Virus record (IMG/VR): IMGVR_UViG_3300042560_002526
Coordinates: 1-48,262 of that record
DNA length: 48,262 bases
Source of the DNA: a virus
Reading direction: 5' to 3' (one strand)
In this document: positions 1-11,061 of the stretch, piece after piece
Layout: every line of letters begins with the position of its first letter
How positions within the stretch are numbered: the first letter of the stretch is position 1
Translations under genes and position numbers: made by a program
The notes under the pieces: generated by a model
What the model was told of the DNA's origin: nothing
The model's database searches: none
Seen by the model: only the letters and a program-made list of their open reading frames with translations

Positions 1-276
1 ACCCCCGTAACAGTTCAATTTGACAATGGTTTTGACTGGGAGTTACTGCACGAACAAAAGCAGGAATTGCTCAAGCTTATCTTCAGCGAGTTTGGCGAGG
101 TCCAAGACGTTCCGCACCCACTAGATTATATCGTGGCAATTATCGATGAAGTGCAATATCAGGCTGCCGACGCTGGCGAGCCCGTAGTTTTTGATGATGA
201 CGAACTCAACGACGAGTTAACCGAAATCGATGCTTTGCTGGAAGGAGTAATCGAAAGTGACAAAGAAAAAGTCTGA
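1..276 (+). CDS. hypothetical acidic protein, 5' end cut by window
   Basis: The reading frame is open from the first base of the window, so the true start lies upstream; 91 codons are visible before the stop. The visible part is strongly acidic, with DDDE and ELTE runs near the C-terminus and several aromatic residues. I recognise no family and see no signal peptide or membrane segment. Its last 20 bases overlap the next gene, whose ribosome site sits inside this gene, so the two are probably translationally coupled. Acidic small proteins of this kind are common in phage early regions, but no function can be given. Confidence 0.7.
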   Translation, partial: TPVTVQFDNGFDWELLHEQKQELLKLIFSEFGEVQDVPHPLDYIVAIIDEVQYQAADAGEPVVFDDDELNDELTEIDALLEGVIESDKEKV

Positions 277-781
277 ATACGACGTGTTACAGCTAATAGC
301 CAATGAGCAGCACGAACTGCAGCAAAAGAAGGGCAGCAACTTAGCCAAAAAGCTTGAGTTACTGTCTCGTAAAAAGGCTGCGTGGATACAGACCGGCATT
401 CCGCAAATGTGGGAAGACGTCAAGCACATTGAAGTAAAAAATTTTGCGCGCCGCGACGTCGCCGGAGAAACACCGCCGTTGGTCGATTTTGTTAACCCCT
501 TGGCAGAGTGCAACATATACGGCAACGGGTTAGCGCTGCACGACAGCAGATTTACGGAGGTTGTCTGGCAAGTTATCGCAGAGAACGACCGCAAAGTGGA
601 TTCATCCTTGCAATATGTTACGTACGATAACGGATACGTAAATACGCCAGAAGAAATGCAGCAAAGTTTTATCAAATGGCTGGCGCGACGTATTGACCAC
701 CGCGTTGTCGTTGATCTGGGTTACACCCCCAAAGAAATCAAAAAAGCTGAGCGGCGCATTCTCTTAGAAGCAACAAATTAA
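257..781 (+). CDS. hypothetical phage protein, 174 aa
   Basis: I chose the GTG start because a clear AAGGAG ribosome site at 242-247 sits nine bases upstream, inside the preceding gene. The N-terminal 50 residues are rich in K, E and Q and look helical or coiled (ELQQKKGSNLAKKLELLSRK). The rest looks like a mixed globular fold with no motif I can name. There is no signal peptide and no cysteine cluster. It belongs to a tight run of small same-strand genes of unknown role. Its reading frame is long and free of stops, unlike the antisense frame over the same bases, which I take as a shadow. Confidence 0.8.
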   Translation: MTKKKSEYDVLQLIANEQHELQQKKGSNLAKKLELLSRKKAAWIQTGIPQMWEDVKHIEVKNFARRDVAGETPPLVDFVNPLAECNIYGNGLALHDSRFTEVVWQVIAENDRKVDSSLQYVTYDNGYVNTPEEMQQSFIKWLARRIDHRVVVDLGYTPKEIKKAERRILLEATN

Positions 782-791
782 CAAATAACCT

Positions 792-1061
792 ATGGTAGAT
801 TTCAACAAACCCGACGCGCTTGACAACCCAAGCCCCGAAGTTTTAGCGTGGTGTAGCAATACAATGCGCGTTATTTCTCATGGCGGTGTGTGGGGTATTC
901 CCAGATCAGGCACCGTTTTTCGGGTAGATCATGTAAACAAGCAACTTGTTTTAATCATGCCCGGCAATGACGACGATGATGATTTTGATGCCACCAAAAA
1001 AGTATTCAAGCACATTGGCTGGGAGGTCGTAAAAGAACATGGACCTGACAGTGCTGAGTAA
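792..1061 (+). CDS. hypothetical protein, 89 aa
   Basis: A small soluble protein. The N-terminal half has one Cys and a glycine-rich patch (SHGGVWGIPRSG); the C-terminal half has a run of five aspartates followed by a KKVFKHIGWEVV segment. I recognise no family. The ATG start has only a weak purine tract upstream. The gene overlaps the next one by 23 bases, consistent with coupling. The pattern of a short beta-rich core (GTVFRVDHVNKQLVLIMPG) with an acidic loop is seen in many small phage proteins, but no role is supported by the sequence alone. Confidence 0.7.
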   Translation: MVDFNKPDALDNPSPEVLAWCSNTMRVISHGGVWGIPRSGTVFRVDHVNKQLVLIMPGNDDDDDFDATKKVFKHIGWEVVKEHGPDSAE

Positions 1062-1638
1062 ACCGCTCCGCCCATTTCGGCGCAGCAGGTTTGACGACGA
1101 AACAATTTGGACAAAACTCTGGGATGGCGTGTGCTGGGCGCCCAGCAAAGTTTATTACTTTTGCCGCAAATACGCGCAGCGCCTTAAACGCAGCTGGGCG
1201 TACGCAAAGTTTGGTTGGGAAAACTACGACTTTGACGGCGAGTACCTGACGCACCTGATAACGTTCAAACTCAAGCGGATGCAAAAAGCGTTACAGGGCG
1301 GTTGTTCGGTTCAGGACGACAAATACATGCAGGCGCTTCAGCTAGCGATTCGGCTAGGCGATAAGCTGGAGAGCCACGCGTATCACTGGTTTCTTGACCG
1401 ACATGACGCCAAATGGGGCGCGGCGCATTTAAATTTTGTTGATGGCGGCGAGCCGTTCAATGGCAAAAACCTGCGATCGATGGAAATTGAGCGCTCAGGA
1501 GTGATAGACGCCGAAACCAAAGCGCAAGAACGCGATGAGTTTCGCGCGGCGTATGAAGCCGACGATGCAATTAGACTGCGCGACGCCCGCCTGTTTTTTA
1601 GAATCATCGAAAAGTATTACCCCGGGTGGTGGGACTAA
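1039..1638 (+). CDS. conserved phage protein ending in WWD, 199 aa
   Basis: A 199-residue protein, basic and tryptophan-rich at the N-terminus and charged towards the C-terminus. It ends in a segment of the form LFFRIIEKYYPGWWD. Phage proteins of unknown function that end in a similar aromatic WWD tail are common in my recollection of large phage genomes, so I treat it as a member of such a conserved family without a known role. An acidic helical stretch (ETKAQERDEFRAAYEADDAIRLRD) precedes the tail. No catalytic motif, signal or membrane segment is visible. It overlaps the gene before it and shares the TAATG stop/start with the gene after it. Confidence 0.8.
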   Translation: MDLTVLSKPLRPFRRSRFDDETIWTKLWDGVCWAPSKVYYFCRKYAQRLKRSWAYAKFGWENYDFDGEYLTHLITFKLKRMQKALQGGCSVQDDKYMQALQLAIRLGDKLESHAYHWFLDRHDAKWGAAHLNFVDGGEPFNGKNLRSMEIERSGVIDAETKAQERDEFRAAYEADDAIRLRDARLFFRIIEKYYPGWWD

Positions 1639-1889
1639 TGAAAAACGGGCGTATCAGCTTGGGCAAAAACAAGCATATTGAACTACTGCACCCAATCAAT
1701 TTTGTGCTAATGCAGCGCCCTGAAATAGACGACCCAGACGTAGAGTGGCCAGAACAAGACGATCTGTACCTATACGGTTTCAGTTTTGATTTCACGACAG
1801 AACTGTACTGGTTCACATATGACTGGGGTCGCGGTTTCAATTTTCGAATTTTGGGTTTTGGTTTTAGCGTTACACACTACTCACTGTAA
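1638..1889 (+). CDS. hypothetical aromatic-rich small protein, 83 aa
   Basis: I place the start at the ATG that overlaps the previous stop codon (TAATG at 1636-1640); an in-frame GTG twelve bases earlier would lie inside the upstream gene without a better ribosome site. The product starts MKNGRISLGKNKHIELLHP. It is rich in Phe, Tyr and Trp and beta-prone, with an alternating pattern at the C-terminus (FNFRILGFGFSVTHYSL). No signal peptide or known motif is present. Its frame fits the same-strand run of small genes. Function unknown. Confidence 0.65.
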   Translation: MKNGRISLGKNKHIELLHPINFVLMQRPEIDDPDVEWPEQDDLYLYGFSFDFTTELYWFTYDWGRGFNFRILGFGFSVTHYSL

Positions 1890-1898
1890 GGGAAAACA

Positions 1899-2150
1899 AT
1901 GAACAACAACAAGAACTTTTGGCCAGTTATGCTCAGCGCGCTGCTGGCTGGCGTGGTAATCCAGTCGATGTTTATCAGCTGCGCGCCTAGTTCAAACACC
2001 GGGAACAACGCTGGTTTTGACGTAGATACCTCCAGCCTTGAGCATCGCTACGCCACGGAACGATTTAAGCAAGAAGGCTATAGCGCTAAAGATGCCCGAA
2101 CAGCTGCTGACGCGGTAATGAAGTTCCACAACGCACAGAAAAACCGGTAA
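1899..2150 (+). CDS. putative lipoprotein or membrane-anchored small protein, 83 aa
   Basis: The N-terminus has the layout of an exported lipoprotein: a short polar start (MNNNKN), a hydrophobic segment at about residues 7-27, and then a Cys preceded by Phe-Ile-Ser, which approximates a signal-peptidase II lipobox. The remaining 55 residues are polar and end in a charged helix with an EGYSAKDARTAADAV segment. It could be a phage lipoprotein that acts at the host envelope, for example in superinfection control, or simply a single-pass anchor. It is not proline-rich like an Rz1 spanin. An AAGGGA ribosome site lies just upstream of the ATG. Localisation is inferred from the N-terminus only. Confidence 0.65.
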   Translation: MNNNKNFWPVMLSALLAGVVIQSMFISCAPSSNTGNNAGFDVDTSSLEHRYATERFKQEGYSAKDARTAADAVMKFHNAQKNR

Positions 2151-2152
2151 CC

Positions 2153-2491
2153 ATGGCAGAGAAAAAATACAAAGTTTTTGACCGGCGGTTGTTGAGCCAC
2201 ATCAACGAATCGTCGATTGGTTTTAAGTACAACAGAACACTAGACCCTGCGTTTATCGCGCGGCTCCCAGAAGACAAGATTTTTCCTGTAGTGTTTACGA
2301 TGCTTCATGAGCACCGCGCAGGAAAAGCTTGTGAGCCCCATGTGCGGGTTATGATTGCTGTCCCCAGTGTTGGAGAAACAGCTGGATTGTCAGACCGACT
2401 TTTGCTTGACGTAAATATGGATTTATTTGATATCATTCCAGAAATCGGCGTTCCGGAAAATGATCCTGAAACAACGCCGGTTGCGGAATGA
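2153..2491 (+). CDS. hypothetical protein, 112 aa
   Basis: A soluble protein with a mixed fold, starting MAEKKYKVFDRRLLSHIN and ending in an acidic tail (ENDPETTPVAE). Beta-type segments such as KIFPVVFTMLHEH and HVRVMIAVPSV suggest a small alpha/beta domain. I cannot assign a family. The gene begins two bases after the putative lipoprotein gene and is followed at once by a small membrane-protein gene, so it may share a transcript and perhaps a role with envelope-acting proteins; that link is only positional. Confidence 0.7.
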   Translation: MAEKKYKVFDRRLLSHINESSIGFKYNRTLDPAFIARLPEDKIFPVVFTMLHEHRAGKACEPHVRVMIAVPSVGETAGLSDRLLLDVNMDLFDIIPEIGVPENDPETTPVAE

Positions 2492-2503
2492 TTTTAGGAG
2501 AAT

Positions 2504-2635
2504 ATGCATTCTCCCTCTTTTTACCTATCGGTGGCTATGTTTACTTTAATCAGCCTGTCATGGCACATTGGGTTGTTCAGTCTTGTCGCAATGTCGTTTT
2601 TCATGGTGTACATCAGCAAACGTTACGGTCGATGA
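2504..2635 (+). CDS. small membrane protein, 43 aa
   Basis: This short frame starts with ATG and has an AGGAG site at 2496-2500, three bases before the start. The product is almost wholly hydrophobic, with two likely membrane segments (YLSVAMFTLISLSW and LFSLVAMSFFMVYI) and a basic end (SKRYGR), which predicts a cytoplasmic C-terminus. A longer frame over 2488-2793 reads through the same bases, but it has poor composition and covers the promoter region, so I prefer this one. Phages use such tiny membrane proteins as holins, antiholins or host-membrane effectors. No lysis enzyme is nearby to favour the holin reading. Confidence 0.6.
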   Translation: MHSPSFYLSVAMFTLISLSWHIGLFSLVAMSFFMVYISKRYGR

Positions 2636-2646
2636 TAGGTATGTCT

Positions 2647-2666
2647 TTACTCTGTATTCTGAGTAA
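2647..2666 (+). other. inverted repeat (hairpin) upstream of a promoter
   Basis: A perfect six-base inverted repeat, TTACTC at 2647-2652 and GAGTAA at 2661-2666, encloses an eight-base loop. No T-run follows, so it is not a standard terminator. It lies about 50 bases before the promoter at 2717-2744 and could be an operator or an RNA processing site; a chance occurrence is possible. Confidence 0.3.
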
Positions 2667-2716
2667 TCAGATACGTAGTACGGTCAAACTGGACACTGCG
2701 ATCTTCCGCGTGTCGC

Positions 2717-2744
2717 TTGACACGATTCCCGAGCCGAATATGAT
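2717..2744 (+). promoter_or_regulatory. sigma70-like promoter before the SEC-C gene
   Basis: A perfect -35 box TTGACA (2717-2722) is followed after 16 bases by TATGAT (2739-2744), a five-of-six match to the -10 box. It sits in the non-coding gap 2636-2817, about 75 bases before the SEC-C gene, the right place to drive it and the genes after it. The boxes are directly visible; host use is inferred. Confidence 0.6.
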
Positions 2745-2817
2745 AGGCGATTCTTCGACATGGTCGCAGCATAGCGGACGCGACCAGCGCTGACAACTCG
2801 TTTTGCAAGGAAGCATC

Positions 2818-3330
2818 ATGACGCAAAAAGATTCTTCTCACGTCGCCGAAAAAGATGCGGCGCTCTTACGTCACCGCCCACGCCGCAATGAGCGGTGCGC
2901 TTGCGGTAGCGGCAAAAAATTTAAACATTGCCACGGCACCACGCCAAACAACATCAATTGGCGTAAGCCCGCCTACATCGACGGCGGCGAGTCTCCGGTG
3001 CGTTGGGTTATTGTTAATCGATCCGGCACTAGTTTCTTTTCGACAAAAGACGACAAGCTTATGGTGTTTAAGTCTCGTGCGGACGCCAACGCCATTGCCA
3101 TGTTGGATTTTTTTGCGGATCAAGAACCCGGCGACATTAACGTTGGGGGCGTAGGGCCGACAAAATGGCAGCATTTGCAAGATACGCTGCCGTACATTGA
3201 AGTTGAAAACGCGGATCAGGGTTTTGTGTTTATTCAAGAACGCATCGACTTTGCCCGCGACACGTATCTAAACGCTGCCGGCGCTGACGCCGACATTCCT
3301 CCCACCGAAACGGATTCGCAGGAGAACTAA
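2818..3330 (+). CDS. SEC-C motif zinc-binding protein, 170 aa
   Basis: Residues 23-40 form a classical SEC-C motif, with C27, C29, C38 and H39 in the pattern CxC-x8-CH inside RRNERCACGSGKKFKHCHG. In SecA and many small bacterial proteins this motif binds one zinc ion and mediates contact with a partner or nucleic acid. The remaining 130 residues show no second known domain and end in a polar, Pro/Thr-rich tail. I chose the ATG at 2818 because AAGGA lies seven to ten bases upstream; a TTG at 2803 has no ribosome site. It is the first gene after the promoter at 2717-2744. The partner is unknown. Confidence 0.8.
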   Translation: MTQKDSSHVAEKDAALLRHRPRRNERCACGSGKKFKHCHGTTPNNINWRKPAYIDGGESPVRWVIVNRSGTSFFSTKDDKLMVFKSRADANAIAMLDFFADQEPGDINVGGVGPTKWQHLQDTLPYIEVENADQGFVFIQERIDFARDTYLNAAGADADIPPTETDSQEN

Positions 3331-3335
3331 TTCGC

Positions 3336-3692
3336 ATGGCATCGCGGCCCACAGCACGCGCTACGGCGCATGGTTGGAACGACTCGTGGTGGGATTACGT
3401 CAAGCACGGGCAGCCAATGGACCCCGCAAAAAAAGCGGAGTTAGCGGCTAAAAAGAAAGCGCGTCAGCAGGAAACAGCAAACAAGGGTTTGCGGTTTATT
3501 ATTTTGAAAAGCTCGCGGTATGTAGACGAAACCGATCTCTCGGTTACTGACGCGTACACCGGACCTACTTGTCGCCGCGCTAAAGTTGAGCCGGGGCAGG
3601 TCTATACGTCGTTTGAGACGGCGCAAGCAGACGCTGACAAACTGTCAAAATTCAACTCTGCAGGATTTGAAGTGCACCCTCTTTCATCATGA
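3336..3692 (+). CDS. hypothetical basic protein, 118 aa
   Basis: A basic protein with a tryptophan-rich N-terminus (HGWNDSWWDYVKHG), then a Lys/Ala-rich helix (DPAKKAELAAKKKARQQ), then a beta-type domain. The basic helix could touch nucleic acid, but no named motif is present. It begins five bases after the SEC-C gene and its stop codon overlaps the start of the next small frame (ATGA at 3689-3692), so it is part of the same unit. Function unknown. Confidence 0.7.
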   Translation: MASRPTARATAHGWNDSWWDYVKHGQPMDPAKKAELAAKKKARQQETANKGLRFIILKSSRYVDETDLSVTDAYTGPTCRRAKVEPGQVYTSFETAQADADKLSKFNSAGFEVHPLSS

Positions 3693-3841
3693 TCTATAGC
3701 GACTACACGGATGTTTTACGCGGCAATCGAATCTCGCCTCCGCATGGCGAAAATGCGGCAAAATCGTATTGCCCGCGTGATGTCCCGGGCGCGACACATA
3801 TTCGCGCTGGTGACGACATTCGGGTTAGCGCGCAATCGTGA
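3689..3841 (+). CDS. possible small protein, 50 aa
   Basis: This frame starts with ATG in an ATGA overlap with the previous stop codon, the usual form of translational coupling, and runs for 50 codons. Its composition looks natural (MIYSDYTDVLRGNRISPP...), more so than the very basic, Met/Arg-rich sequence read over the same bases by the neighbouring longer frame. If it is real, the downstream zinc-ribbon gene probably starts later than its first ATG. No family recognised. Confidence 0.4.
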   Translation: MIYSDYTDVLRGNRISPPHGENAAKSYCPRDVPGATHIRAGDDIRVSAQS

Positions 3842-4820
3842 GAAACGCGCGGTACGCCGACGATGGCGTAAGTTTCAAGGCTGGTGGTTGCATACGCTAG
3901 AGCAGCTTTGCACTCACGGATTATGGTCACCGGTTTCAGACCAGTGTTTTTCTAATCTCACTGCAAACGAAGCCAACCGATTTGATTTCGCGTTTGGCTT
4001 GTGCACGCGGTGTCTGCCTTTATGTGTGAAGTGGGTAGAGTCTCGCGCGTCTTTTGTGCGGCGTCTTCGTCGCAAAATAAACGCGCAGATTATTCCCTGC
4101 CGTAAGACGCATTTCTGTCCATCTTGTTTTGCGTCTTTGTCGGCCAACCAGTATCGAAAATTTAAAGAGGTCGTAAACGATCTTATTCAGAGTCACGCCG
4201 TCGTTAGCGTTACGGCGCACGTCTCTGCTGTGTTTATTCCAGCGACCACACTGTACGATAAAAATCTGCAGCAGGACGAGTATTTACGGGAAAACATTGG
4301 AGCTCTTCGGCAGGCTATAACGCACGCAAAAAATTTGCGGCAAAAGCTGCACAAGCGGTTTCAGCGCAACACGCTTGGGTCGTTCTGGCGGATCATCGCT
4401 GTTCCAATGCCAGACGGCTGGCGTTTGGAAACTCGATGGGTGGTGCTGCATCGAAGCGATACGCCCCCACCGATTGAAGACACTGACGACAGTCACGTAC
4501 GGTTTCACAAAACTGTGGCTTTAGAGTACTCAACGTGGGCCGAGCGGTTTTCTAGCGGCGACCTTGATGACACGCTGGCCGACGTGCTGGCTCGATTTGC
4601 TAAATATCCAGTATCGCTCATTCGCGGCGATGTAGACCTTATTGCTGCGTGGTTAAACGCTAGCGCAAGAACAAAAGTTTTGCTCGGAACTGGTCTTTTA
4701 AAACAAGCCGGCCCAAGCCTTATTGGTCACTACAAAAAACGCGACAAGCGCACACGCCGAGCTCGCGCGTACAGGAGAAGTCGTCTTGCCGGGCAAACGA
4801 CGCAAACGCGCAACACGTAA
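3711..4820 (+). CDS. zinc-ribbon protein of unknown function, up to 369 aa
   Basis: The protein has an arginine-rich N-terminus and then a likely zinc ribbon: a CTRCLPLC cluster followed about 27 residues later by a CRKTHFCPSC cluster. A central part (SFWRIIAVPMPDGWRLETRWVVLHRSD) is beta-rich, and the C-terminus is very basic. A zinc ribbon plus basic ends suggests nucleic-acid binding, perhaps replication- or transcription-related, but I cannot name the family. The start is unsure: no candidate start (3711, 3744, 3780 or a GTG at 3810) has a good ribosome site, and the first 130 bases overlap another plausible small frame. The 3' end overlaps the HTH gene. Confidence 0.6.
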   Translation: MFYAAIESRLRMAKMRQNRIARVMSRARHIFALVTTFGLARNREKRAVRRRWRKFQGWWLHTLEQLCTHGLWSPVSDQCFSNLTANEANRFDFAFGLCTRCLPLCVKWVESRASFVRRLRRKINAQIIPCRKTHFCPSCFASLSANQYRKFKEVVNDLIQSHAVVSVTAHVSAVFIPATTLYDKNLQQDEYLRENIGALRQAITHAKNLRQKLHKRFQRNTLGSFWRIIAVPMPDGWRLETRWVVLHRSDTPPPIEDTDDSHVRFHKTVALEYSTWAERFSSGDLDDTLADVLARFAKYPVSLIRGDVDLIAAWLNASARTKVLLGTGLLKQAGPSLIGHYKKRDKRTRRARAYRRSRLAGQTTQTRNT

Positions 4821-5922
4821 TGGTGTTGCTCCGGGTATTGCGTTTGACCCTGCGCCTACCACGCAGCGGTTACGCTACTTGTGTGAGTTCTTGTTTGCCG
4901 GCGACCCCTATGCCATGGCGCAGGCGCTTGGCGTTTGTTATAGGCACTTCTATACGGTTTACGACGGCCGGTGTAAATTGTCGATTCGCATGGCGGGGCA
5001 AGTTATTGCCGCGCTGAACGTTCGGGCCGAGTGGCTGCTAAACGGAACAGGGCCAATGCTAGCGACAGACATTTCTGAAATTCGATTTCATCTTGCGCCG
5101 ACTATACGTAGTTCGTTTCCGTTAAAATCGGCTGATCGGTTTATCCGGCCGGAAACTGTTTGCGCGGCGCCGTCTGATAATGCTGCGCCAGAAGCTGTGG
5201 GTGATTACTCGGAAGCCGCCACCGCGCTTTTTAAGGCGCGTGTGCAGAATGCTCCGGTACTCCTGTTGGTCGGCGGCACCGCGGCACCAGCTGGCCCGGC
5301 AATGGCTTCTTTTATCCGTAGTGGTTATGCCGGCGCTGCTGGCTTTACCCTGCAGGCGGCAAAACAAGATGCCTCGCCGGCACTAGCCGCAGGTGAATTA
5401 GACTTAAACAACATAGCTAGGTTTGCTGCCGCCGTTGGCCGAGGATACGGGGAGGCTATTGCGTCAAAGATTCATAGTCCCCGTTCTCCGTGGCCCAGAG
5501 AGCACAGCGCCTTGGCTGCGGCATACGACAACTCGCTGCCGATAGCTGTACAGGTTGAGCTTGGTGAAATACCCGAGCATTTTGGCCCAGTGCACGCCGG
5601 CGCAGAGTTAGGCGCCGCTGTTGGTTCTGCAGCGTATGTGGACCAGCTTGTGTTGGCTGACTATTTGCAAAAAATTGACTGCCATGACGCGGCAGTCATT
5701 ATTTGCGTTGGAGAAGCACATCGTTGGCTGACTGCCTTATCGCGGCAGTCAACCTTACTTCGGAAAATCATCTTGGCAGACGCTGACACATCGGCGGCGC
5801 AGTGTTTTTCGCAAAAAGCGGCGCAGGTGATCTACATTGACAATAGTGCTTGTGTGTTTTTTCGTGAATTGCTTGTGGCGGTTCAGGCGGCTCAAGCCGC
5901 CGGTGAAATGACTGGAGAATAG
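4786..5922 (+). CDS. HTH domain fused to deoxyhypusine-synthase-like domain
   Basis: Residues about 25-91 look like a Cro/CI-type helix-turn-helix, including the tail EWLLNGTGPM that such repressors often carry after the recognition helices. Residues about 150-375 resemble the bacterial deoxyhypusine-synthase-like family: a Rossmann-type strand NAPVLLLVGG, a segment GRGYGEAIASK, then HSALAAAYDNSLPIAVQVELG and AELGAAVGSAAYVDQL. True synthases use a lysine for spermidine transfer to eIF5A; I do not see that active-site segment, and bacteria lack eIF5A. A ligand- or NAD-sensing regulator is one reading. I chose the TTG at 4786 because AGGAGA lies eight bases upstream; a TTG at 4723 lacks a ribosome site. 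It overlaps the preceding gene. Confidence 0.6.
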   Translation: MPGKRRKRATRNGVAPGIAFDPAPTTQRLRYLCEFLFAGDPYAMAQALGVCYRHFYTVYDGRCKLSIRMAGQVIAALNVRAEWLLNGTGPMLATDISEIRFHLAPTIRSSFPLKSADRFIRPETVCAAPSDNAAPEAVGDYSEAATALFKARVQNAPVLLLVGGTAAPAGPAMASFIRSGYAGAAGFTLQAAKQDASPALAAGELDLNNIARFAAAVGRGYGEAIASKIHSPRSPWPREHSALAAAYDNSLPIAVQVELGEIPEHFGPVHAGAELGAAVGSAAYVDQLVLADYLQKIDCHDAAVIICVGEAHRWLTALSRQSTLLRKIILADADTSAAQCFSQKAAQVIYIDNSACVFFRELLVAVQAAQAAGEMTGE

Positions 5923-5923
5923 A

Positions 5924-7138
5924 GTGGCAGATAGTGTTTTTGAACAAGTCGATCAGTTTGTGCTGCACTCTTCCGCGCCGACAGTTCCGAAAGAGGACGT
6001 ATTGTCGGCGCAAGAGCAGCTCACCTTTGTGACGTCGCTTATTGACTTCTGGAAGCAGGTACCTAAAGCCTGTCGCGCTCAGTTGCAACGCGTGTCTGAA
6101 AGTATTTCGCAGCTTGATTTCCCACTAATTGGTGGAGATTTTTACTCGGCATTGTTTTCTAGCGAGCGGATTGCCAGCGCAGAGAAGAAATACGGTTTGT
6201 CGCAGGAAGAGGTTTTTGCTGCGTTGCTGTACGCGCTGCAGCTGTTTTTGATGCGGTCTGACCCAAAGACGGCGGTTATCGATGACTTGTGGAAACTGGT
6301 TGTAATTGCGCTGGAGAAAGCGGCCAACAGAAACAAGCCGACCAACGAGCCCGAGCTGTACAACGAGCGCATGGTGTCTCGGGTATTTAAACACCGCAAA
6401 CAAACCATTGCGTCGTTGGGCGCCGTCAACGCCGAGTATGTGTATTTTGAAACCCCGGTAGCCGACGACAAACATGGGCCAGAGCTCCGCGGACTGGCAT
6501 TTATTTCTCGCACTGATTTGCCAAAAGCAAAGCAGCCTGCTTTCGCCAATAAGCTTTTTGTGTTGCTCGAAACCGGCGAGCACATTATTGTCGAGACAAA
6601 TGCTTCAAACCTAAGCCGCCACGCCGATCCCGAAGCCTACGAGAAAATTCCGGCGAGCTTGTTGCTGCAGGCGGTAATTGCGGCGCCACTGATGGTTCGC
6701 ATGGGCGTTATTACTCGGTCTCAGGCTGATACTATCGCAGAAACGTTTGGTGAGTTTATTGCGCCTGTAACAGCAGAGATTATTGCTGACACGGCGTCCA
6801 TGCTGCCGATTGAACAGGTGTTTGTGCGGGCGCACGCCAACACGGCTTATGCCGGGCACGTTACTGGACCCAACGGAGCCGAGGTGCGGTTTCCCGCACT
6901 AAGCATCGACGACACCAATCAGCTCGCTTTTGTGTTGCGCGCGCGGATTACGCCGAGCAGCTATTACTTGGTATCTAGTCTGGTGGCGGGCGGAGACGAC
7001 TCTCCCGATGTACCCATCATGAAAAATGACTACCCAAGACAGCTGTCTCCATACGGCGTATACTTATTTCCAACGTCGCAGGATTTGTTCGTGTTGTCGG
7101 CTTTTCCGCACAACTTTATTCTTGGCCCCGAGGGATAG
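5924..7138 (+). CDS. hypothetical protein, 404 aa
   Basis: A large soluble protein starting at a GTG with GGAG about eight bases upstream, at the end of the preceding gene. The N-terminal half is helical (a VFAALLYALQLFLMR helix near residue 100); a central part has the form ANKLFVLLETGEHIIVETNASN; the C-terminal part is beta-rich and glycine-poor. I see no P-loop, zinc cluster or nuclease motif. It lies between the HTH fusion gene and the exonuclease gene with almost no spacing, so the three are probably co-expressed. No function can be named. Confidence 0.8.
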   Translation: MADSVFEQVDQFVLHSSAPTVPKEDVLSAQEQLTFVTSLIDFWKQVPKACRAQLQRVSESISQLDFPLIGGDFYSALFSSERIASAEKKYGLSQEEVFAALLYALQLFLMRSDPKTAVIDDLWKLVVIALEKAANRNKPTNEPELYNERMVSRVFKHRKQTIASLGAVNAEYVYFETPVADDKHGPELRGLAFISRTDLPKAKQPAFANKLFVLLETGEHIIVETNASNLSRHADPEAYEKIPASLLLQAVIAAPLMVRMGVITRSQADTIAETFGEFIAPVTAEIIADTASMLPIEQVFVRAHANTAYAGHVTGPNGAEVRFPALSIDDTNQLAFVLRARITPSSYYLVSSLVAGGDDSPDVPIMKNDYPRQLSPYGVYLFPTSQDLFVLSAFPHNFILGPEG

Positions 7139-7143
7139 GCGGC

Positions 7144-7758
7144 ATGTATTTGTTCATGGACACGGAAACCGGCGGGCTAACGCCAGACCGTAGTTTGCTT
7201 ACGGCGTCGTTTATTCCGGTGGACAAGAATTTCGGCATTATGCCGCTTACGTATTTCGATCCGCTAATGCAGCGGACAGAGCACGCTGAGTGCGGCCTGT
7301 ATCTGGCTATTAAGCCGGAGACGTACGTCATCGACCAAGAGGCGTTAGCCGTTAACAAAATCAACATCGCCGAGCACGAGCGCGACGCGGTACCGGTCGA
7401 CATGGCTCGCCGGCTGATCAACAGTTTTGTAGAAGCCGCGCGCAAAGAATCCGGCAAAAAGTATCTGGTCCCCGCCGGTCACAATGTGGCGTTTGACGTG
7501 CAGTTTTTGAAAGCGCAAATCTTCACTGAAGAAGAGTGGGACCGGTTGTTCACGTACCCGTTTCTGGACACAGCGTCTGCTGCGCGGTTCCTCAACGCAG
7601 CTGGGGCTATTGACGGCGGGTACTCGCTGACCACGATGCGGTCCAAGTTTTTGAGCGCCGATTTTGGAGTTGCGCACAACGCAGAAGTGGATAATCTGAC
7701 GACTATCGCGTTGGCTCAAAAGCTCACTGAATTCGTTCAACGGCGCGCCAGCGCCTAA
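7144..7758 (+). CDS. DnaQ-like 3'-5' exonuclease (DEDDh family), 204 aa
   Basis: All four exonuclease motifs of the RNase H-like DEDD family are visible. Motif I is D6-T-E8-T-G-G at the very N-terminus; motif II is GHNVAFD with D118; motif III is HNAEVD with H178 and D183, which marks the DEDDh subgroup of DnaQ and RNase T. The family removes nucleotides from 3' ends using two metal ions and serves proofreading, DNA repair or RNA turnover. At 204 residues it is a stand-alone exonuclease domain with a moderate insertion (about residues 40-90). The phage polymerase in this window has its own exonuclease domain, so this enzyme may serve recombination or nucleic-acid degradation instead. Confidence 0.85.
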   Translation: MYLFMDTETGGLTPDRSLLTASFIPVDKNFGIMPLTYFDPLMQRTEHAECGLYLAIKPETYVIDQEALAVNKINIAEHERDAVPVDMARRLINSFVEAARKESGKKYLVPAGHNVAFDVQFLKAQIFTEEEWDRLFTYPFLDTASAARFLNAAGAIDGGYSLTTMRSKFLSADFGVAHNAEVDNLTTIALAQKLTEFVQRRASA

Positions 7759-7856
7759 ATCGCGTCAAACTTCCGCGATCTGGCACCCTAGTCATGAGTG
7801 GGTCATAACCGTGAAGCGTACAGCAAAGAAAGGTGATACTCCAATTTGTGTGTGCG

Positions 7857-7871
7857 AAGCCGTGGTATAAA
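7857..7871 (+). promoter_or_regulatory. possible extended -10 promoter for the tRNA
   Basis: TGGTATAAA at 7863-7871 gives an extended -10 element (TGn followed by TATAAA), about 20 bases before the tRNA. I see no clear -35 box at the right spacing, which extended -10 promoters can lack. The rest of the gap 7759-7891 holds nothing else I can support. Confidence 0.4.
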
Positions 7872-7891
7872 AGGACGTTACCGCGCGAAGC

Positions 7892-7962
7892 TGCCCGATG
7901 GTGTAACGGTAGCACAAGAGATTTTGGCTCTCTTAGTCTAGGTTCGAATCCTAGTCGGGCAT
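7892..7962 (+). tRNA. tRNA-Gln (anticodon UUG)
   Basis: A complete cloverleaf: seven-base acceptor stem TGCCCGA/TCGGGCA, a four-base D stem, a five-base anticodon stem AGAGA/TCTCT around the loop TTTTGGC (anticodon TTG), a short variable loop, and a perfect T arm CTAGG-TTCGAAT-CCTAG. The U1-A72 first pair is a known glutamine identity feature. CCA is not encoded. It reads CAA (and CAG by wobble). Confidence 0.95.
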
Positions 7963-7963
7963 T
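7939..7963 (+). repeat. direct repeat copy 1: 3' end of the tRNA-Gln
   Basis: These 25 bases cover the T arm, the 3' acceptor strand and the discriminator of the tRNA. The identical 25 bases recur at 8522-8546, so the pair brackets the gene between them. Confidence 0.9.
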
Positions 7964-7975
7964 CGGAGGTTTTAA

Positions 7976-8524
7976 ATGAGTACTAGCGTAAATCTTTGGG
8001 ATCAGCTAGACGTACCGCACAAAGGTTGGATTTTTTTAGACGTTATAGATACGGAAACAGCAGAAGCAACCTGCGAGATGTGCGGAAACGAGCGTATTCG
8101 TTATGTACATATGATGGCGCACGCAGATTACGCCGCACGACTCAGTGTTGGTTGTGTGTGCGCCGAAAAAATGGCAGATGATTATGTTAACCCGCGTCGT
8201 CGCGAACGTAAATTGCGCAATGCTGCTGCAAAACGCATTCGCGACAAAAAACGTGAACTTGAAAATAAAGAAACGCGGCGACAACAAATACTTGACGCGG
8301 TGTGGCAAGAATCAAAAAACGGCAATCCGTATTTGCGCATAAATCTATACTACAGCGACAGTAGCCACATCTGGACGCGAAAAATTCACGCTGTAGTAGT
8401 CAAATCAAAATTTACAGCTTCTTGGGCATTCTCTGTCGATGGCGTGTTTTCATCGTATAAGCACGCCAGCATAAACGCGGCGATGGCGGCGGCAAAACAA
8501 GAAATTTTGCGCAAATTTGTTTAG
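7976..8524 (+). CDS. zinc-finger protein of a mobile-context family, 182 aa
   Basis: The N-terminal half has two cysteine clusters, CEMCG and VGCVCAEKM, separated by an RYVHMMAHADY segment, which together look like a metal site. The middle is a long basic helix (RRRERKLRNAAAKRIRDKKRE) and the C-terminal part is a beta-type domain. I recall similar proteins (WxxLDVPHxGW...CEMCG...IRYVH...VGCVCA) in bacterial plasmids, islands and phages, all of unknown function. A GGAGG site stands six bases before the ATG. The gene starts 13 bases after a tRNA, and its stop codon lies inside a second copy of that tRNA's 3' end, so it looks inserted at the tRNA. Role unknown; nucleic-acid contact is likely. 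Confidence 0.8.
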   Translation: MSTSVNLWDQLDVPHKGWIFLDVIDTETAEATCEMCGNERIRYVHMMAHADYAARLSVGCVCAEKMADDYVNPRRRERKLRNAAAKRIRDKKRELENKETRRQQILDAVWQESKNGNPYLRINLYYSDSSHIWTRKIHAVVVKSKFTASWAFSVDGVFSSYKHASINAAMAAAKQEILRKFV

Positions 8525-8546
8525 GTTCGAATCCTAGTCGGGCATT
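8522..8546 (+). repeat. direct repeat copy 2: tRNA-Gln 3' fragment
   Basis: An exact 25-base copy of the tRNA-Gln 3' end (T arm, acceptor 3' strand, discriminator). No D or anticodon arm precedes it, so it is not a second tRNA. Its first three bases serve as the TAG stop codon of the upstream gene. This is the arrangement left when an element inserts at a tRNA 3' end, or after a partial duplication. Confidence 0.9.
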
Positions 8547-8573
8547 GGTTTAATTTTACTTTTGGAGAACAAC

Positions 8574-8894
8574 ATGATTAAAAACAATTTGGTGTACCAG
8601 TCTTATCGTTCGGCTAAGCAAAAGACAGAGCGGCGTTTAGTTGGATTGCCGCTGCGTAAGCATTTAATCAAAAACATTTGTCGCGTCATGAAGGAGTATG
8701 CTCCGCTTGTTGGCGTAACTCAAAAAGAAATTGCTGCCGACATTAAGGCTATTCAGGCGTGGAAACTTGATGCGGTGACAGATTGGTACTTCCTATACGA
8801 CGCGCTTGGGTCTTCTTCTCGCCTTGATATTGAACTGCTTGATTTTTGTTCTTATGCGCGGTCGCGCTGGTGGTACAACCAACTTTCGCGGTAG
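8574..8894 (+). CDS. hypothetical basic protein, 106 aa
   Basis: A basic, helical protein starting MIKNNLVYQSYRSAKQK, with a possible helix-turn-helix-like segment near residues 40-60 (MKEYAPLVGVTQKEIAADIKAI). It ends in aromatic residues (SRWWYNQLSR). The ATG at 8574 has GGAG seven bases upstream (an earlier in-frame TTG is part of that ribosome site). It lies between the tRNA fragment repeat and the tRNA-like RNA. The VTQKEIAADI segment resembles a DNA-recognition helix pair, but the match is too short for a firm call. Confidence 0.65.
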   Translation: MIKNNLVYQSYRSAKQKTERRLVGLPLRKHLIKNICRVMKEYAPLVGVTQKEIAADIKAIQAWKLDAVTDWYFLYDALGSSSRLDIELLDFCSYARSRWWYNQLSR

Positions 8895-8910
8895 AGTATT
8901 TTTTGGTTTT

Positions 8911-9051
8911 TGATCGGCTCCTCAGTGACAGCGACTAAGGCGGCGCTTTGGTGCGCCGGTACCCAACAGCCACGTGCTTGACCTAACCCGACGGGGTGAA
9001 CTACACAGCATGCCGGTGAGGTACATAGCGGGTGCAATTCCCGCCCGATCA
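8911..9051 (+). ncRNA. tRNA-like structured RNA with a very large variable domain
   Basis: The segment folds like a tRNA with one oversized arm. A seven-base outer stem pairs 8911-8917 (TGATCGG) with 9045-9051 (CCGATCA). A D-like hairpin pairs 8920-8926 with 8934-8940 with one mismatch. A six-base hairpin follows (CGGCGC 8941-8946 with 8953-8958, loop TTTGGT). Then comes a large domain closed by GTACC 8959-8963 with GGTAC 9020-9024, containing CGTGCT/AGCATG (8973-8978, 9007-9012, one G-U) and ACCC/GGGT (8986-8997). Last is a T-arm-like hairpin GCGGG-TGCAATT-CCCGC (9028-9044) that abuts the outer stem exactly as in tRNA. The bases after it, ATTCGGAGG, also follow the real tRNA here. Family unknown. 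Confidence 0.5.
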
Positions 9052-9103
9052 ATTCGGAGGCTGACGTTAGAGTTACAAAAATTTGTTTAATAAGGACGCA
9101 GTA

Positions 9104-9412
9104 ATGACATTCAACGAACTGGAAGAGAAGGTACTGCAGTGGGCGATAGACCGAAAGATCATCCCCAACAGCAATCCGACAGCGCAACTCATGAAGACGA
9201 TGTCGGAGTTGGGCGAGTTAGCCGACGCCACGCTCAAGGACAATCGACACGGCATTGTGGACGGCGTTGGCGACGTGCTGGTGACACTGATTCTGTACTG
9301 CAAATTACAAGAAATCAGCGTAGCGGCATGTTTAGGCCGTGCCTACGATGAGATTAAAGATAGAAAAGGCACTTTAACACCAGAAGGTATTTTTGTGAAG
9401 GAGACAGCATGA
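9104..9412 (+). CDS. MazG-like nucleotide pyrophosphohydrolase, 102 aa
   Basis: The sequence matches the all-alpha MazG/dUTPase superfamily. Helix two holds SELGELADA with E35 and E38, and helix three holds DGVGDVLVTLILYC with D53 and D57, together the ExxE...D/ExxD metal site. MazG enzymes hydrolyse (d)NTPs to monophosphates and pyrophosphate; phage MazG proteins have been proposed to clean nucleotide pools or to alter alarmone signalling. At 102 residues it is a single-domain form, like most phage versions. The ATG has AAGGA nine bases upstream; an in-frame TTG further up lies at the edge of the structured RNA. Its stop overlaps the start of the next gene by four bases. Confidence 0.8.
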   Translation: MTFNELEEKVLQWAIDRKIIPNSNPTAQLMKTMSELGELADATLKDNRHGIVDGVGDVLVTLILYCKLQEISVAACLGRAYDEIKDRKGTLTPEGIFVKETA

Positions 9413-9687
9413 TCGATCCAAATAAAGTAATAAATGACTGCGAGCAAGCCGATCATATTATGCAGGATCAACGGGCCGAAATTGATCGGCTCAAGGAAGC
9501 CATCCGCCGCCTCGCTGACCAAGACGCCACGCTCTCGGTGTGCAACGGCAACGTGATTGTGACGATGGACGCCACTCTCACCGACGAGGAGCGGGAGGCG
9601 GTGGAGTGGGCGGAAGAACTCGCTGGAAACTGCGAAGAGTTTGATCGCGTGAACACGCTGCGCAACCTACTAGAGAGAACGAAGTGA
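9409..9687 (+). CDS. LTDEER-module small protein, 92 aa
   Basis: The N-terminal 40 residues form a likely coiled coil (AEIDRLKEAIRRLADQ). The C-terminal part carries the module LTDEEREAVEWAEELAG...TLRNLLERTK that recurs in three other proteins in this stretch (starting at 9684, 9944 and 11354). The gene starts in an ATGA overlap with the MazG gene. The module is helical and has no catalytic residues I can point to. From memory, the same LTDxER...LLERL pattern is frequent in small proteins of Planctomycetes genomes. The base composition of the gene looks more G+C-rich than the genes before it. Function unknown. Confidence 0.75.
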   Translation: MIDPNKVINDCEQADHIMQDQRAEIDRLKEAIRRLADQDATLSVCNGNVIVTMDATLTDEEREAVEWAEELAGNCEEFDRVNTLRNLLERTK

Positions 9688-9947
9688 CTAAAACACAATG
9701 TCAAGTTCCGTCGCAAATAAACGTGACGCTCACAGACGAGCAGCGAGAGTCATTGCGGGCGTCCTTGTCAGGCGGTGCAGGAGGCCCGCTGGTTCATCCA
9801 CCGCAGCCCGCGCTCACCGCCGATGAGTGGGAAGCCGTCTGGCTGGCAATCGGAATGTTCGCGGAAGGGCCGGAGCATATCAAGCGACATGAGGAAATGG
9901 CCGACACGCTGCGCAACCTGCTGGAGCGGCTAGGAGGTGCAAAGTGA
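9684..9947 (+). CDS. LTDEER-module small protein, 87 aa
   Basis: A paralogue of its neighbours: VTLTDEQRESLRASL near residue 11 is followed by a second helical unit (LTADEWEAVWLAIGMFAEG) and the closing TLRNLLERLGGAK. It thus carries the module twice, the first copy truncated. It starts with GTG in a GTGA overlap with the gene before and ends in a GTGA overlap with the gene after, so all three are coupled. One copy of the hairpin repeat described elsewhere (core at 9786-9795) lies inside this gene. Part of the likely transferred block; no function known. Confidence 0.7.
   Translation: MTKTQCQVPSQINVTLTDEQRESLRASLSGGAGGPLVHPPQPALTADEWEAVWLAIGMFAEGPEHIKRHEEMADTLRNLLERLGGAK
9697..9717 (+). repeat. 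imperfect 21-base direct repeat, left copy
   Basis: These 21 bases (AATGTCAAGTT followed by a variable pair and GTCGCAAA) match 11664-11684 at 18 of 21 positions. The two copies bracket most of the cassette-like block. Confidence 0.5.
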
Positions 9948-10252
9948 GCGACACAAACAAGCCTGTGGCATGGGCAGTGACGCCGAACGGCCGCGACGAG
10001 GAGATTGACTGCGAGTTCATCTACCCTGACGCCGCGACTGCCGGAGACGTTGCGCTGGGTTGCGATGGCGTGGTGTTGCCGCTCTTTCGTCCGAAGCCAC
10101 CGCCTGCCACCACGCTCACCGACGAGGAGCGGGAGGCGTTGAATCGCGGAATCGACGCGTTGTACGGCGTGGAGGACGTATCGGATGGTGCGTGCCGCAG
10201 AGACGATGCCGCAGCGAGGACGCTCCTCGCGTTACTGGAACGACTGAAGTGA
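9944..10252 (+). CDS. two-part LTDEER-module protein, 102 aa
   Basis: The first half has the pattern KPVAWAVTPNG...VVLPLFRPKP, a small beta-type unit; the second half is the LTDEEREALNRGID...LLALLERLK helical module. The same two-part layout recurs in the protein at 11354-11665 (CAWAV...VPLYRSP then LTDEER). This suggests a real domain pair, not chance. It starts with GTG in a four-base overlap with the preceding gene. No enzyme motif is visible. A role as a small adaptor or host-taking-over factor is possible but unsupported. Confidence 0.7.
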   Translation: MSDTNKPVAWAVTPNGRDEEIDCEFIYPDAATAGDVALGCDGVVLPLFRPKPPPATTLTDEEREALNRGIDALYGVEDVSDGACRRDDAAARTLLALLERLK

Positions 10253-10259
10253 GAACGAT

Positions 10260-10296
10260 GCGATCTGCGGCGCAGTCCCCTCAATCGCGTGGTTCT
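10260..10296 (+). repeat. hairpin repeat element a
   Basis: An outer stem GCGAT (10260-10264) pairs with ATCGC (10284-10288), and the 3' side runs into the shared core ATCGCGTGGTTCT (10284-10296). It separates the stop of the 9944 gene from the next small gene. It is one of six related elements in this stretch. Confidence 0.65.
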
Positions 10297-10310
10297 GGAG
10301 ACACACACAC

Positions 10311-10478
10311 ATGACAATCACTCAAATAATCGGTGCTGCACTGATCGCATCCCCCTTTGCGGGCGTTGCGGTGTTGTGCCACATGCACGGCGGCTGGCCC
10401 GCCGTTGCTGTAGTGTTTGGGGCGAGCGGAGCCGTTGTTGCTGTTATCGCACTTGGGTGCCGACTTCTGGTTCCATAA
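10311..10478 (+). CDS. small membrane protein with two hydrophobic segments, 55 aa
   Basis: ATG start, 55 codons, stop TAA. Two hydrophobic stretches (roughly residues 5-23 and 30-50) are separated by a short HMHGGWP turn, which predicts a two-span helical hairpin with a short basic tail (CRLLVP). Ribosome-site evidence is weak: only GGAG about ten bases upstream. It lies between hairpin repeats a and b, as one unit of the cassette-like array. Tiny two-span proteins in phages include holins and membrane effectors, but nothing here decides. Confidence 0.5.
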   Translation: MTITQIIGAALIASPFAGVAVLCHMHGGWPAVAVVFGASGAVVAVIALGCRLLVP

Positions 10479-10483
10479 CGCTT

Positions 10484-10519
10484 GCGATCTGCGGCTCGTC
10501 CGCAGCATCGCGTGGTTCT
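10484..10519 (+). repeat. hairpin repeat element b
   Basis: A near-perfect hairpin: GCGAT (10484-10488) with ATCGC (10507-10511) outside, CTGCGG (10489-10494) with CCGCAG (10500-10505) inside, and a five-base loop. The 3' arm continues into the core ATCGCGTGGTTCT (10507-10519). It shares its left arm GCGATCTGCGGC with element a. Confidence 0.7.
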
Positions 10520-10532
10520 CTCAGGGAGTCTG

Positions 10533-10730
10533 GTGCGATCAATGAGATGGTTCATCTGCAAAAACCACAGCGGCGAGAAGTTTGTGAAACGCTGGTACGC
10601 GATCTGGCCGGTGACGGTCAAGGGTGAGACGCGATGGTTGGAGTGGGTCGCCGTGGAATACCGGAGGGTGTTCTACGTCGGCAAGGATCACATTCAGCAC
10701 GGGGAGCAGGCGGTTCGGTTTGTGAGTTGA
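10533..10730 (+). CDS. hypothetical small basic protein, 65 aa
   Basis: I place the start at the GTG at 10533, five bases after GGGAG; an ATG at 10542 is an alternative. The product is basic and aromatic, with many Trp, Tyr and Val residues (RWYAIWPVTVKG, WLEWVAVEYRRVFYVG), and looks like a small beta barrel or SH3-like fold. No family recognised. It lies between hairpin repeats b and c in the cassette-like array. Confidence 0.55.
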   Translation: MRSMRWFICKNHSGEKFVKRWYAIWPVTVKGETRWLEWVAVEYRRVFYVGKDHIQHGEQAVRFVS

Positions 10731-10760
10731 GAGAACACGCAGGATCAGGAGCGGCGAACA

Positions 10761-10994: not shown

Positions 10995-11000
10995 CGACAA

Positions 11001-11042: not shown

Positions 11043-11061
11043 GCGTCAAACGAGGTGAGAC

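Follow-up and report, generated by a model that had tools for sequence, protein, structure and literature searches.

In ordinary CI repressors, DNA damage is sensed by the S24 domain. An enzyme-related sensor is found in BzdR: the protein responds to benzoyl-CoA, and the domain that binds its ligand is a relative of shikimate kinase (PMC6079105). Deoxyhypusine synthase (DHS) is a tetramer that holds NAD between two subunits (PMC7432094), a layout suited to ligand-gated oligomers. In trypanosomes, a dead DHS paralogue was reported to raise DHS activity 3000-fold in a heterotetramer (PMC3663545). A study of viral polyamine enzymes mentioned host DHS homologues, and the accessible portion of that paper did not mention an HTH fusion (PMC9992855). 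No pairing of an HTH with a domain of the DHS superfamily was found in named phage records or in the open literature, a scope that leaves subscription journals and preprints mostly outside, and no phage repressor with a ligand domain was found in the open literature. Here, such a pairing was analysed in a viral DNA of 48,262 nucleotides (IMG/VR record IMGVR_UViG_3300042560_002526), the whole of which is called the window.

Organisation of the fusion gene and its HTH domain

The full open frame of the fusion gene extended from TTG 4723 to TAG 5922. The start given in the preliminary description, TTG 4786, was preceded by AGGAG at a distance of 8 nt. The gene was composed of the following elements, as read from the open reading frame and its orthologues.

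4773–4777, + strand: ribosome-binding site AGGAG serving the start at 4786, from the sequence
4786–5922, + strand: fusion gene of 378 residues, with a CI-type HTH, a linker and a DHS-fold domain
4861–5061, + strand: Cro/CI-type helix-turn-helix, residues ~26–92, with the tail EWLLNGTGPM, matched by phrog_2328
5062–5193, + strand: variable linker, residues 93–136, from the alignment
5194–5919, + strand: DHS-fold domain related to GSU2086, residues 137–378, from NF052581, hhalign and a fold match

Among the nine distinct fusion sequences, the whole-protein pairwise identity was 0.26–0.67, with a mean of 0.40. The mean pairwise identity was 0.45 in the HTH, 0.26 in the linker, and 0.34, 0.49 and 0.45 in residues 137–206, 207–300 and 301–378, respectively. 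Thirty-five residues were invariant, of which 26 were located in the C-terminal domain.

The window protein was matched by phrog_2328, annotated as "transcriptional repressor", with an E-value of 3e-4, and the same match was obtained in all six fusion proteins scanned, with 2.4e-5 as the best value in this set of the window protein plus five orthologues, in agreement with the Cro/CI-like head and tail of the preliminary description. Pfam gave no HTH match in the window protein, and HTH_3 was found in one of the six proteins (E 0.018), which indicates a divergent HTH. When the HTH columns of the fusion-family profile were searched against cell genomes, all five of the matched proteins that were read were HTH_3 proteins, two of which carried an S24 peptidase. 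No S24 peptidase was matched by Pfam in any of the six fusion proteins. The NCBIfam model PRK08154, which we take to represent the BzdR type (an HTH with a shikimate-kinase-like sensor), matched the window HTH weakly (E 0.17).

Homology and predicted fold of the C-terminal domain

The sole NCBIfam family that matched the C-terminal domain was NF052581 (GSU2086_dom), with an E-value of 1.4e-10, and it matched six of six fusion proteins scanned; the score of 41 bits was far below the curated cut-off of 250 bits. The domain of the window protein had no Pfam match, and Pfam DS (PF01916) was not found at E ≤ 10 in the window or with the domain alone. When the fusion domain was compared by hhalign with 80 GSU2086 members, the probability was 98.4%, with an E-value of 4.1e-15 over 199 columns. 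The GSU2086 members in turn matched bacterial DHS-like proteins (95.0%, E 3.9e-8), while the direct comparison of the fusion domain with these proteins was weak (23.6%, E 8.6e-4). The bacterial DHS-like set was composed of seven of 11 loci; L104, L105, L109 and L111 gave no frame and were dropped, and L112 was left out. The DHS-like assignment of the preliminary description therefore held through GSU2086 and not as direct membership of DHS, and the motifs quoted there aligned with GSU2086 members as stated.

A purpose-built GSU2086 profile scored the 11 real rows at 19.9–42.6 bits, the next-best frame of the window at 1.4 bits, and none of 2,211 control sequences, made by shuffling or reversing the domain, above 5.3 bits (1,374 controls were among the hmmsearch matches, and the remainder were taken as lower-scoring). 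A chance or low-complexity resemblance was rejected on this control score and on the NF052581 match in all members. Reciprocally, a six-member fusion profile matched at least 159 of 297 cell genomes, and the ten best cell-genome loci were all GSU2086 genes (261–478 bits). A PDB sequence search with the fusion profile gave a best E-value of 0.098 for an S-layer protein, followed by the 434 repressor at 0.12, and a scan of genome contigs with the fusion domain returned 86 stretches, none of which was confirmed. By sequence, the nearest known family of the domain is the uncharacterised bacterial GSU2086 family (NF052581), not DHS itself.

When the structural model of the domain was compared with known structures, the best match was AgrE (6lrf), with a VIA Z of 14.8 and an r.m.s.d. 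of 3.4 over 188 residues. DHS (7cmc_B) was matched with a VIA Z of 14.0 and an r.m.s.d. of 3.2 over 203 residues. The matches to AgrE/ArgZ, which we take to be an ornithine cyclodeaminase, and to DHS were tied within 1 Z unit, and LOR/SDH proteins were also matched. With Foldseek, DHS was matched at an E-value of 1.1e-4, with low TM scores of ~0.3–0.37 (query length) and r.m.s.d. values of 6–10. The DHS fold suggested beforehand was thus recovered in a model that was built from an alignment of 80 GSU2086 rows, without HTH rows or fusion orthologues, and it is not independent of that homology. As no alignment rows covered the HTH part, it was modelled poorly (pLDDT of 32–46 per ten residues over residues 1–140). 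A structure search of a viral library returned nothing at E ≤ 0.001, the lowest E-value being 0.26; with a pLDDT below 50 in 152 of the 378 residues this search was weak and is not evidence of absence.

Distribution and phylogeny of the fusion family

The fusion, which the preliminary description had proposed to look for in related phages, was present in 11 IMG/VR records with nine distinct sequences, all between the same two neighbour genes. The carriers are a family of large uncultured phages. Motif counts and the tree were based on 16 of 80 cellular GSU2086 rows, eight of ten viral GSU2086 rows and nine of 11 fusion rows. The viral rows L085 and L088, which appear to be copies of L084 and L087, were left out, as were the fusion rows L130, identical to L129, and L135, identical to L134 over 305/305 residues. 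The fusion sequences formed one side of a branch with a support of 100/100, and thus one clade. This clade fell in the GSU2086 part of the tree, on a long branch whose placement was flagged as unsure by the tree program, which also warned of a deviating composition in the window row.

No relative was found by tblastn among 50,697 phage records with the window, L096 and L134 proteins. The stand-alone viral GSU2086 protein L087 gave nothing in the phage records, and the L096 protein gave nothing in plasmids. Among the matches listed for the fusion profile in the 297 cell genomes, no row spanned both the HTH and the domain. When viral contigs were scanned with either partner gene, the 205-kb record alone was recovered.

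Conserved residues and proposed mechanism

Two conserved regions of the domain were located as follows.

5443–5454, + strand: GxGE motif (Gly220, Gly222 and Glu223), invariant in 9/9 sequences of the alignment and mostly kept in GSU2086
5557–5643, + strand: family-specific stretch Glu258-x-Gly260-Glu261-x3-His265, continuing to Gly276, Gly280 and Asp286, invariant in 9/9 sequences

The (S/T)WGK motif of the DHS lysine loop, present in 7/7 bacterial DHS-like proteins, corresponded to a gap in 9/9 fusion sequences. Plain DHS was rejected on this absence and that of a Pfam DS match. Thr188 was kept on the column of an NAD-contacting threonine of DHS, and the NAD-site residues of DHS were otherwise mostly not kept. 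Binding of NAD or a polyamine, as first envisaged for the domain, thus finds little support in the conserved residues. DHS chemistry is not expected, since the lysine loop and most GSU2086 motifs are absent.

The reading preferred here, with a probability of roughly 0.55, is a one-component regulator that combines a CI-type HTH with a pseudo-enzyme domain of the GSU2086 side, reworked and probably able to bind a ligand and to oligomerise. The HTH would bind operator DNA in a dimeric or tetrameric form, and the C-terminal domain, a member of the DHS superfamily, would mediate oligomerisation and offer a pocket to a small metabolite of the host. This metabolite may be a nucleotide, a sugar phosphate or a sugar nucleotide, and its binding would change the DNA affinity. 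The DHS-fold domain occupies the place of the self-cleaving S24 domain of ordinary CI repressors. From the architecture we infer that a ligand would alter the specific binding to DNA, and the oligomerisation, the ligand and the regulated targets are likewise putative. This reading draws on the HTH and GSU2086 matches throughout the family, the predicted fold, the single clade with its constant neighbours, the invariant residues of the domain, the subunit layout of DHS and the precedent of BzdR. Counting against it are the HTH, which escapes Pfam in the window protein and was poorly modelled, the dependence of the fold model on GSU2086 rows and its low TM scores to DHS, the missing gap ahead of the gene, the mostly lost NAD-site residues of DHS, and the related contig L098, which has no fusion gene at this junction.

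The same domain might instead be a dimer or tetramer scaffold without a ligand, in a constitutive repressor or DNA-organising protein. Only 14–21 of the 72 GSU2086-invariant columns were kept in the fusion sequences, about as few as in the DHS-like proteins (13–16), whereas stand-alone viral GSU2086 proteins kept 38–69; this count, the missing lysine loop and the tetrameric state of DHS (PMC7432094) are compatible with a scaffold. However, the polar residues Glu258, Glu261, His265 and Asp286 were invariant in 9/9 sequences despite a mean identity of 0.40, which exceeds what a bare scaffold would need, and a ligand-free scaffold is considered unlikely.

Genomic context

The genes around the fusion gene were arranged as follows.

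3711–4820, + strand: upstream partner gene, present in all nine loci, with its 3' end overlapping the fusion gene
5924–7138, + strand: downstream partner gene, with a GTG directly after the fusion stop at 5922, present in all nine loci
7144–7758, + strand: protein like an exonuclease subunit of DNA polymerase, next in the operon (phrog_192, E 2.3e-16)

With the start codons chosen, the overlap between the upstream partner and the fusion gene was 35 nt here and 23–50 nt over the nine loci. The downstream partner in L134 was weak (E 5.8e-4) and was cut by the contig end. The fusion gene lies upstream of the exonuclease as the preliminary description stated, with one gene (5924–7138) in between. 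Farther along, SbcD, helicases, a primase, a DNA polymerase, UvsX and RuvC were encoded. When + strand frames of at least 75 residues were taken as genes, all gaps in 257–7758 were shorter than 40 nt, and the fusion gene is part of a tightly packed operon. The stretch near 3.6–3.9 kb, where the preliminary description proposed to test DNA binding, is coding and has no intergenic gap, and an operator there was rejected. No palindromes as candidate operators were found near the fusion gene.

An integrase of the PF00589 type, the only type searched for, was found in none of six records including the 205-kb one, records that may be fragments. With no such integrase, no gap before the gene, and neighbours of replication and recombination, a role in lysogeny, implied by the earlier term "phage repressor or switch", is unlikely. 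A tentative extension of the regulator reading is that the pseudo-enzyme reads a host metabolite and, through the CI-type HTH, times the replication and recombination genes of a large phage, as a metabolic switch and not an SOS (RecA) or peptide switch.

The same neighbours, from the exonuclease in the operon to RuvC, and the lack of a PF00589 integrase in 6/6 records would also fit a replication or recombination accessory in place of a transcription regulator, with the HTH targeting an origin or DNA ends and the domain reporting a metabolite state or simply oligomerising. Against this, the HTH is similar to the one in CI repressors, and in one related contig (L098) both neighbours were present while the fusion gene was absent at that junction. 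Such an accessory is rather improbable.

By its number, the Geobacter GSU2086 gene falls between hldE and gmhA, two heptose genes. In the cellular GSU2086 loci there was no dominant neighbour, and no neighbour cluster occurred in more than 15 loci. Ten neighbours of viral GSU2086 genes were scanned: three were sugar-type enzymes, three had no match, and the remainder comprised methyltransferases, a sulfotransferase and a primase-like protein. Evidence that GSU2086 acts in a sugar operon is confined to Geobacter and a few loci. The fusion has a replication and recombination neighbourhood, but since the cellular copies lack a dominant neighbour as well, a sugar context may not define GSU2086.

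Possible catalytic residues

Glu258, Glu261 and His265 sit within eight residues, and His265 aligned with a near-invariant histidine of GSU2086 (15/16 rows). This invariant acid/histidine cluster, specific to the phage family, could form a new active site in an enzyme that its HTH tethers to DNA or else to the operator of its own gene. In the HDFE motif, the aspartate was kept in 7/9 fusion sequences and the histidine in 4/9, as an active enzyme might show, but the glutamate was kept in 0/9. In addition, the TSEDV/FGMAEETG stretch of GSU2086 was largely deleted, the threonine and aspartate of GTD and Lys246 were replaced in 9/9 sequences, and, overall, the GSU2086 motifs TSEDV, FGM, GTD, Lys246 and GHHE were lost. 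An active enzyme is accordingly very improbable. A pseudo-enzyme subunit in a mixed oligomer with a host or phage GSU2086 or DHS-like enzyme, after the manner of the 3000-fold-activating trypanosome paralogue (PMC3663545), is scarcely credible, since it leaves the HTH unexplained and NF052581 found no stand-alone GSU2086 gene in six fusion-bearing records (L001, L096, L099, L127, L130 and L134), which may be fragments.

Comparison with known systems

The fusion may let a phage tune its gene use to a small host molecule. If the domain is a sensor, large phages would have a direct readout of host metabolism, and identifying the ligand may help to reveal the function of the widespread, uncharacterised GSU2086 family.

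The fusion domain aligns with GSU2086 over 199 columns and lies on its side of the tree. It differs from GSU2086 in carrying an HTH, in its phage replication operon, in keeping 14–21/72 columns, and in lacking the TSEDV–FGMAEETG stretch and Lys246. With DHS (PF01916) and the DHS-like homospermidine synthases, the domain shares the predicted fold and the Thr188 column, whereas the Pfam DS match and the WGK loop are absent. The DHS-fold part of AgrE/ArgZ and LOR/SDH proteins is the best structural match of the fusion model; however, the glutamate of their HDxE motif is lost in 9/9 fusion sequences, and their domain partners are others.

CI repressors with S24 have the same kind of HTH and a tail of the EWLL-x-G-x-G type, whereas the fusion carries a DHS-fold domain in the place of S24. 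BzdR likewise combines an HTH with a borrowed enzyme fold as a sensor (PMC6079105), a role that the fusion domain may share, but BzdR is bacterial, uses another enzyme fold and has a known ligand.

Fusion gene and its surroundings

The fusion gene lay in an open frame in the window sequence (4723–5922, + strand). A ribosome binding motif-like AGGAG at 4773–4777 preceded the TTG start at 4786, from which the 378 residues of the product are numbered. Bases 1–11,919 were 100% identical to the fetched part of IMGVR_UViG_3300042317_001568 (205,010 bases), and the window is therefore part of a large phage genome. PHROGs around the gene included exonuclease, SbcD, helicases, primase, DNA polymerase, UvsX, RuvC, and tail fibre.

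Features of the window and of the 205-kb record
2803–3330, SEC-C zinc motif protein (Pfam PF02810, E 2.9e-8)
3336–3692, small gene flanked by the SEC-C gene and the upstream partner
3711–4820 (+), upstream partner
4786–5922 (+), fusion gene
5924–7138 (+), downstream partner
7144–7758 (+), exonuclease gene
7892–7962, tRNA-Gln (ttg), directly downstream of the exonuclease gene
9409–9687, 9684–9947, 9944–10252, and 11354–11665, four small ORFs with a common motif, found by eye
36543–36567, palindrome CGCGCTA-N7-TAGCGCG inside a 309-nt gap between + strand genes, a possible operator
38155–38210, hairpin with perfect 11-bp arms and then a T-rich run, resembling an intrinsic terminator
45157–46803, collagen-like tail fibre protein
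205-kb record (L001), 53008–53910, RNA polymerase beta'-type piece (PF04998, E 3.5e-20)

The SEC-C gene was found upstream of the fusion in eight of nine fusion loci, the other (L126) being on a contig that starts within the upstream partner gene; it was also present in L098, a related contig that lacks the fusion gene. Searches of the related phage loci gave no relative of gene 3336–3692 at a threshold of E ≤ 0.01. The four small ORFs shared L-T-D-E-(E/Q)-R-E-(A/S)-(L/V) ... L-L-(E/K)-R, and perhaps form a family of small paralogous proteins. RNA polymerase beta'-type pieces also occurred in the records of fusion-bearing L096 and of L087 (three of six records searched).

N-terminal domain

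The Cro/CI-like domain proposed in the preliminary description was borne out by profile comparisons. PHROG 2328 (transcriptional repressor) matched residues 44–92 of the window protein (E 3e-4) and all six family members examined. Pfam gave no HTH match on the window protein, and HTH_3 in one of the six members (E 0.018). In a search of 297 genomes, the HTH columns of the six-member phage profile matched small HTH proteins; all five inspected contained HTH_3, and two had an additional S24 peptidase, a feature of ordinary CI-type repressors. We assign the HTH of the fusion protein to the Cro/CI type, though as a divergent member.

C-terminal domain and its relation to deoxyhypusine synthase

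The sole NCBIfam family matched by the window protein was NF052581, the GSU2086 family (E 1.4e-10), which was matched in six of six members. Since the score of 41 bits was far below the curated cut-off of 250, the phage domain is judged homologous to the GSU2086 family but not a member of it. When the six phage members were compared with 80 real GSU2086 genes taken from bacterial contigs, the profiles aligned over 199 columns with a probability of 98.4% (E 4.1e-15). Eleven real rows scored 19.9–42.6 bits, against a top score of 5.3 bits among shuffled or reversed controls (n = 2,211). In the reciprocal search, the phage profile matched 159 of 297 genomes, and the best ten loci were all GSU2086 genes.

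The GSU2086 profile in turn matched seven bacterial proteins resembling deoxyhypusine synthase (DHS) with a probability of 95.0% (E 3.9e-8), as compared with 23.6% (E 8.6e-4) for the phage profile alone. The NF052581 model also gave matches, below its cut-off, in six of 14 control genomes, all within the seven with a Pfam DS signal; these counts are at genome level. A predicted GSU2086 structure (pLDDT 92.5) matched DHS in Foldseek (E 1.7e-9); VIA-align matched it to AgrE with Z 21.1 over 218 residues (rmsd 3.4) and to DHS with Z 20.5 over 263 residues (rmsd 3.9). The phage model was poor in its N-terminal part and more confident in a core of about 141–330. Its Foldseek match to DHS had an E of 1.1e-4 but low TM-scores (~0.3); VIA-align matched it to AgrE with Z 14.8 over 188 residues (rmsd 3.4) and to DHS with Z 14.0 over 203 residues (rmsd 3.2). 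Because GSU2086 rows were used in building it, the phage model represents consistency, not independent proof of the fold. As regards fold and superfamily, the earlier by-eye assignment of the domain as DHS-like was correct.

Conserved residues

Sixteen cellular GSU2086 rows shared 72 invariant columns. Phage members kept 14–21 of these, eight viral stand-alone GSU2086 proteins 38–69, and the seven DHS-like proteins 13–16. In the HDFE motif, Asp was retained in seven of nine phage sequences, His in four, and Glu in none. The TSEDV-FGMAEETG stretch was largely deleted, replacements occurred at the Thr and Asp of GTD, at K246, and at GHHE, and the WGK loop, bearer of the DHS lysine, was missing. 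Roles of Lys329 and His288 have been described for DHS (PMC7226451).

Thr188 was invariant in the phage family and its column was Thr in all seven DHS-like proteins; by alignment, this column corresponds to a Thr that contacts NAD in an archaeal DHS (PMC7432094). The phage family had 35 invariant residues, 26 of them in the domain, including E258, G260, E261, H265, G276, G280, D286, and R313. Mean identity was 0.45 in the HTH, 0.26 in the linker, 0.34 in 137–206, 0.49 in 207–300, and 0.45 in 301–378. We read the domain, from these residue patterns, as a pocket still under selection that has lost DHS/GSU2086 chemistry.

Distribution and origin

A scan with the exonuclease gene yielded related phage contigs, five of which carried a fusion orthologue (E 2e-43 to 3e-50). 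The family-profile scan brought the total to 11 IMG/VR records with nine distinct sequences (pairwise identity 0.26–0.67, mean 0.40), and the same fusion is present in related phages. The same upstream and downstream genes flanked it in all nine loci, where, with the start codons as chosen, its start overlapped the upstream gene by 23–50 nt. In L098 (region 6440–6580), the upstream gene ended at 6511 and the downstream frame opened at once, with GTG 6518 as the earliest possible start; the fusion gene was found neither at that junction nor elsewhere in the 79,681-base record. Named phage and plasmid records gave no match to the fusion protein, and among the matches listed for the phage profile in 297 genomes, none held the HTH and the domain together in one row. 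In the tree, the fusion sequences formed one side of a branch with support of 100/100, on the GSU2086 side and at the tip of a long branch. This topology fits a single origin of the fusion, with the exact placement of the branch unsure.

Possible ligand and regulation

CI-type HTH domains act as dimers. DHS enzymes form tetramers in which NAD is held between two subunits (PMC7432094). With the HTH joined to the DHS-fold domain, the protein would be an oligomer that binds DNA, and a bound small molecule may set its geometry or stability.

A Geobacter electrode-growth gene table lists GSU2086 between hldE (GSU2085) and gmhA (GSU2087), with a value of -3.2 and the annotation ‘hypothetical cytoplasmic protein in sugar biosynthesis operon’ (PMC5585712). 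The sugar-gene link is thinner outside Geobacter. No neighbour cluster occurred in more than 15 of 90 cellular and viral GSU2086 loci; ten neighbours from four viral loci included three sugar-type enzymes (heptosyltransferase-family, GDP-mannose dehydratase, and pfkB kinase) and three without a match. Because of this context in Geobacter and some viral loci, a sugar-phosphate or nucleotide-sugar may be a candidate ligand alongside NAD. Ten viral contig loci (L083–L092) carried stand-alone GSU2086 genes, some near sugar genes, and the one in L090 was also within 3 kb of relatives of the SbcD/SbcC of the window.

Between 257 and 7758 there was no gap of at least 40 nt between + strand ORFs (of at least 75 aa). 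An operator is therefore probably located elsewhere, and the DNA-binding site proposed earlier at 3.6–3.9 kb was unsupported. A role as lysogeny repressor is disfavoured, because a profile search of the 205-kb record found no PF00589 integrase and the neighbourhood is one of replication genes.

Comparison with known systems

The HTH and DHS-fold architecture was not found in the literature searched, mostly listings and abstracts, or in the named phage collection. The architecture itself is without a precedent found, but its principle is already known. In BzdR, an HTH is paired with a borrowed enzyme fold that serves as sensor (PMC6079105). The trypanosome DHS paralogue that is catalytically dead is a precedent for a DHS fold retained for regulation without catalysis (PMC3663545).
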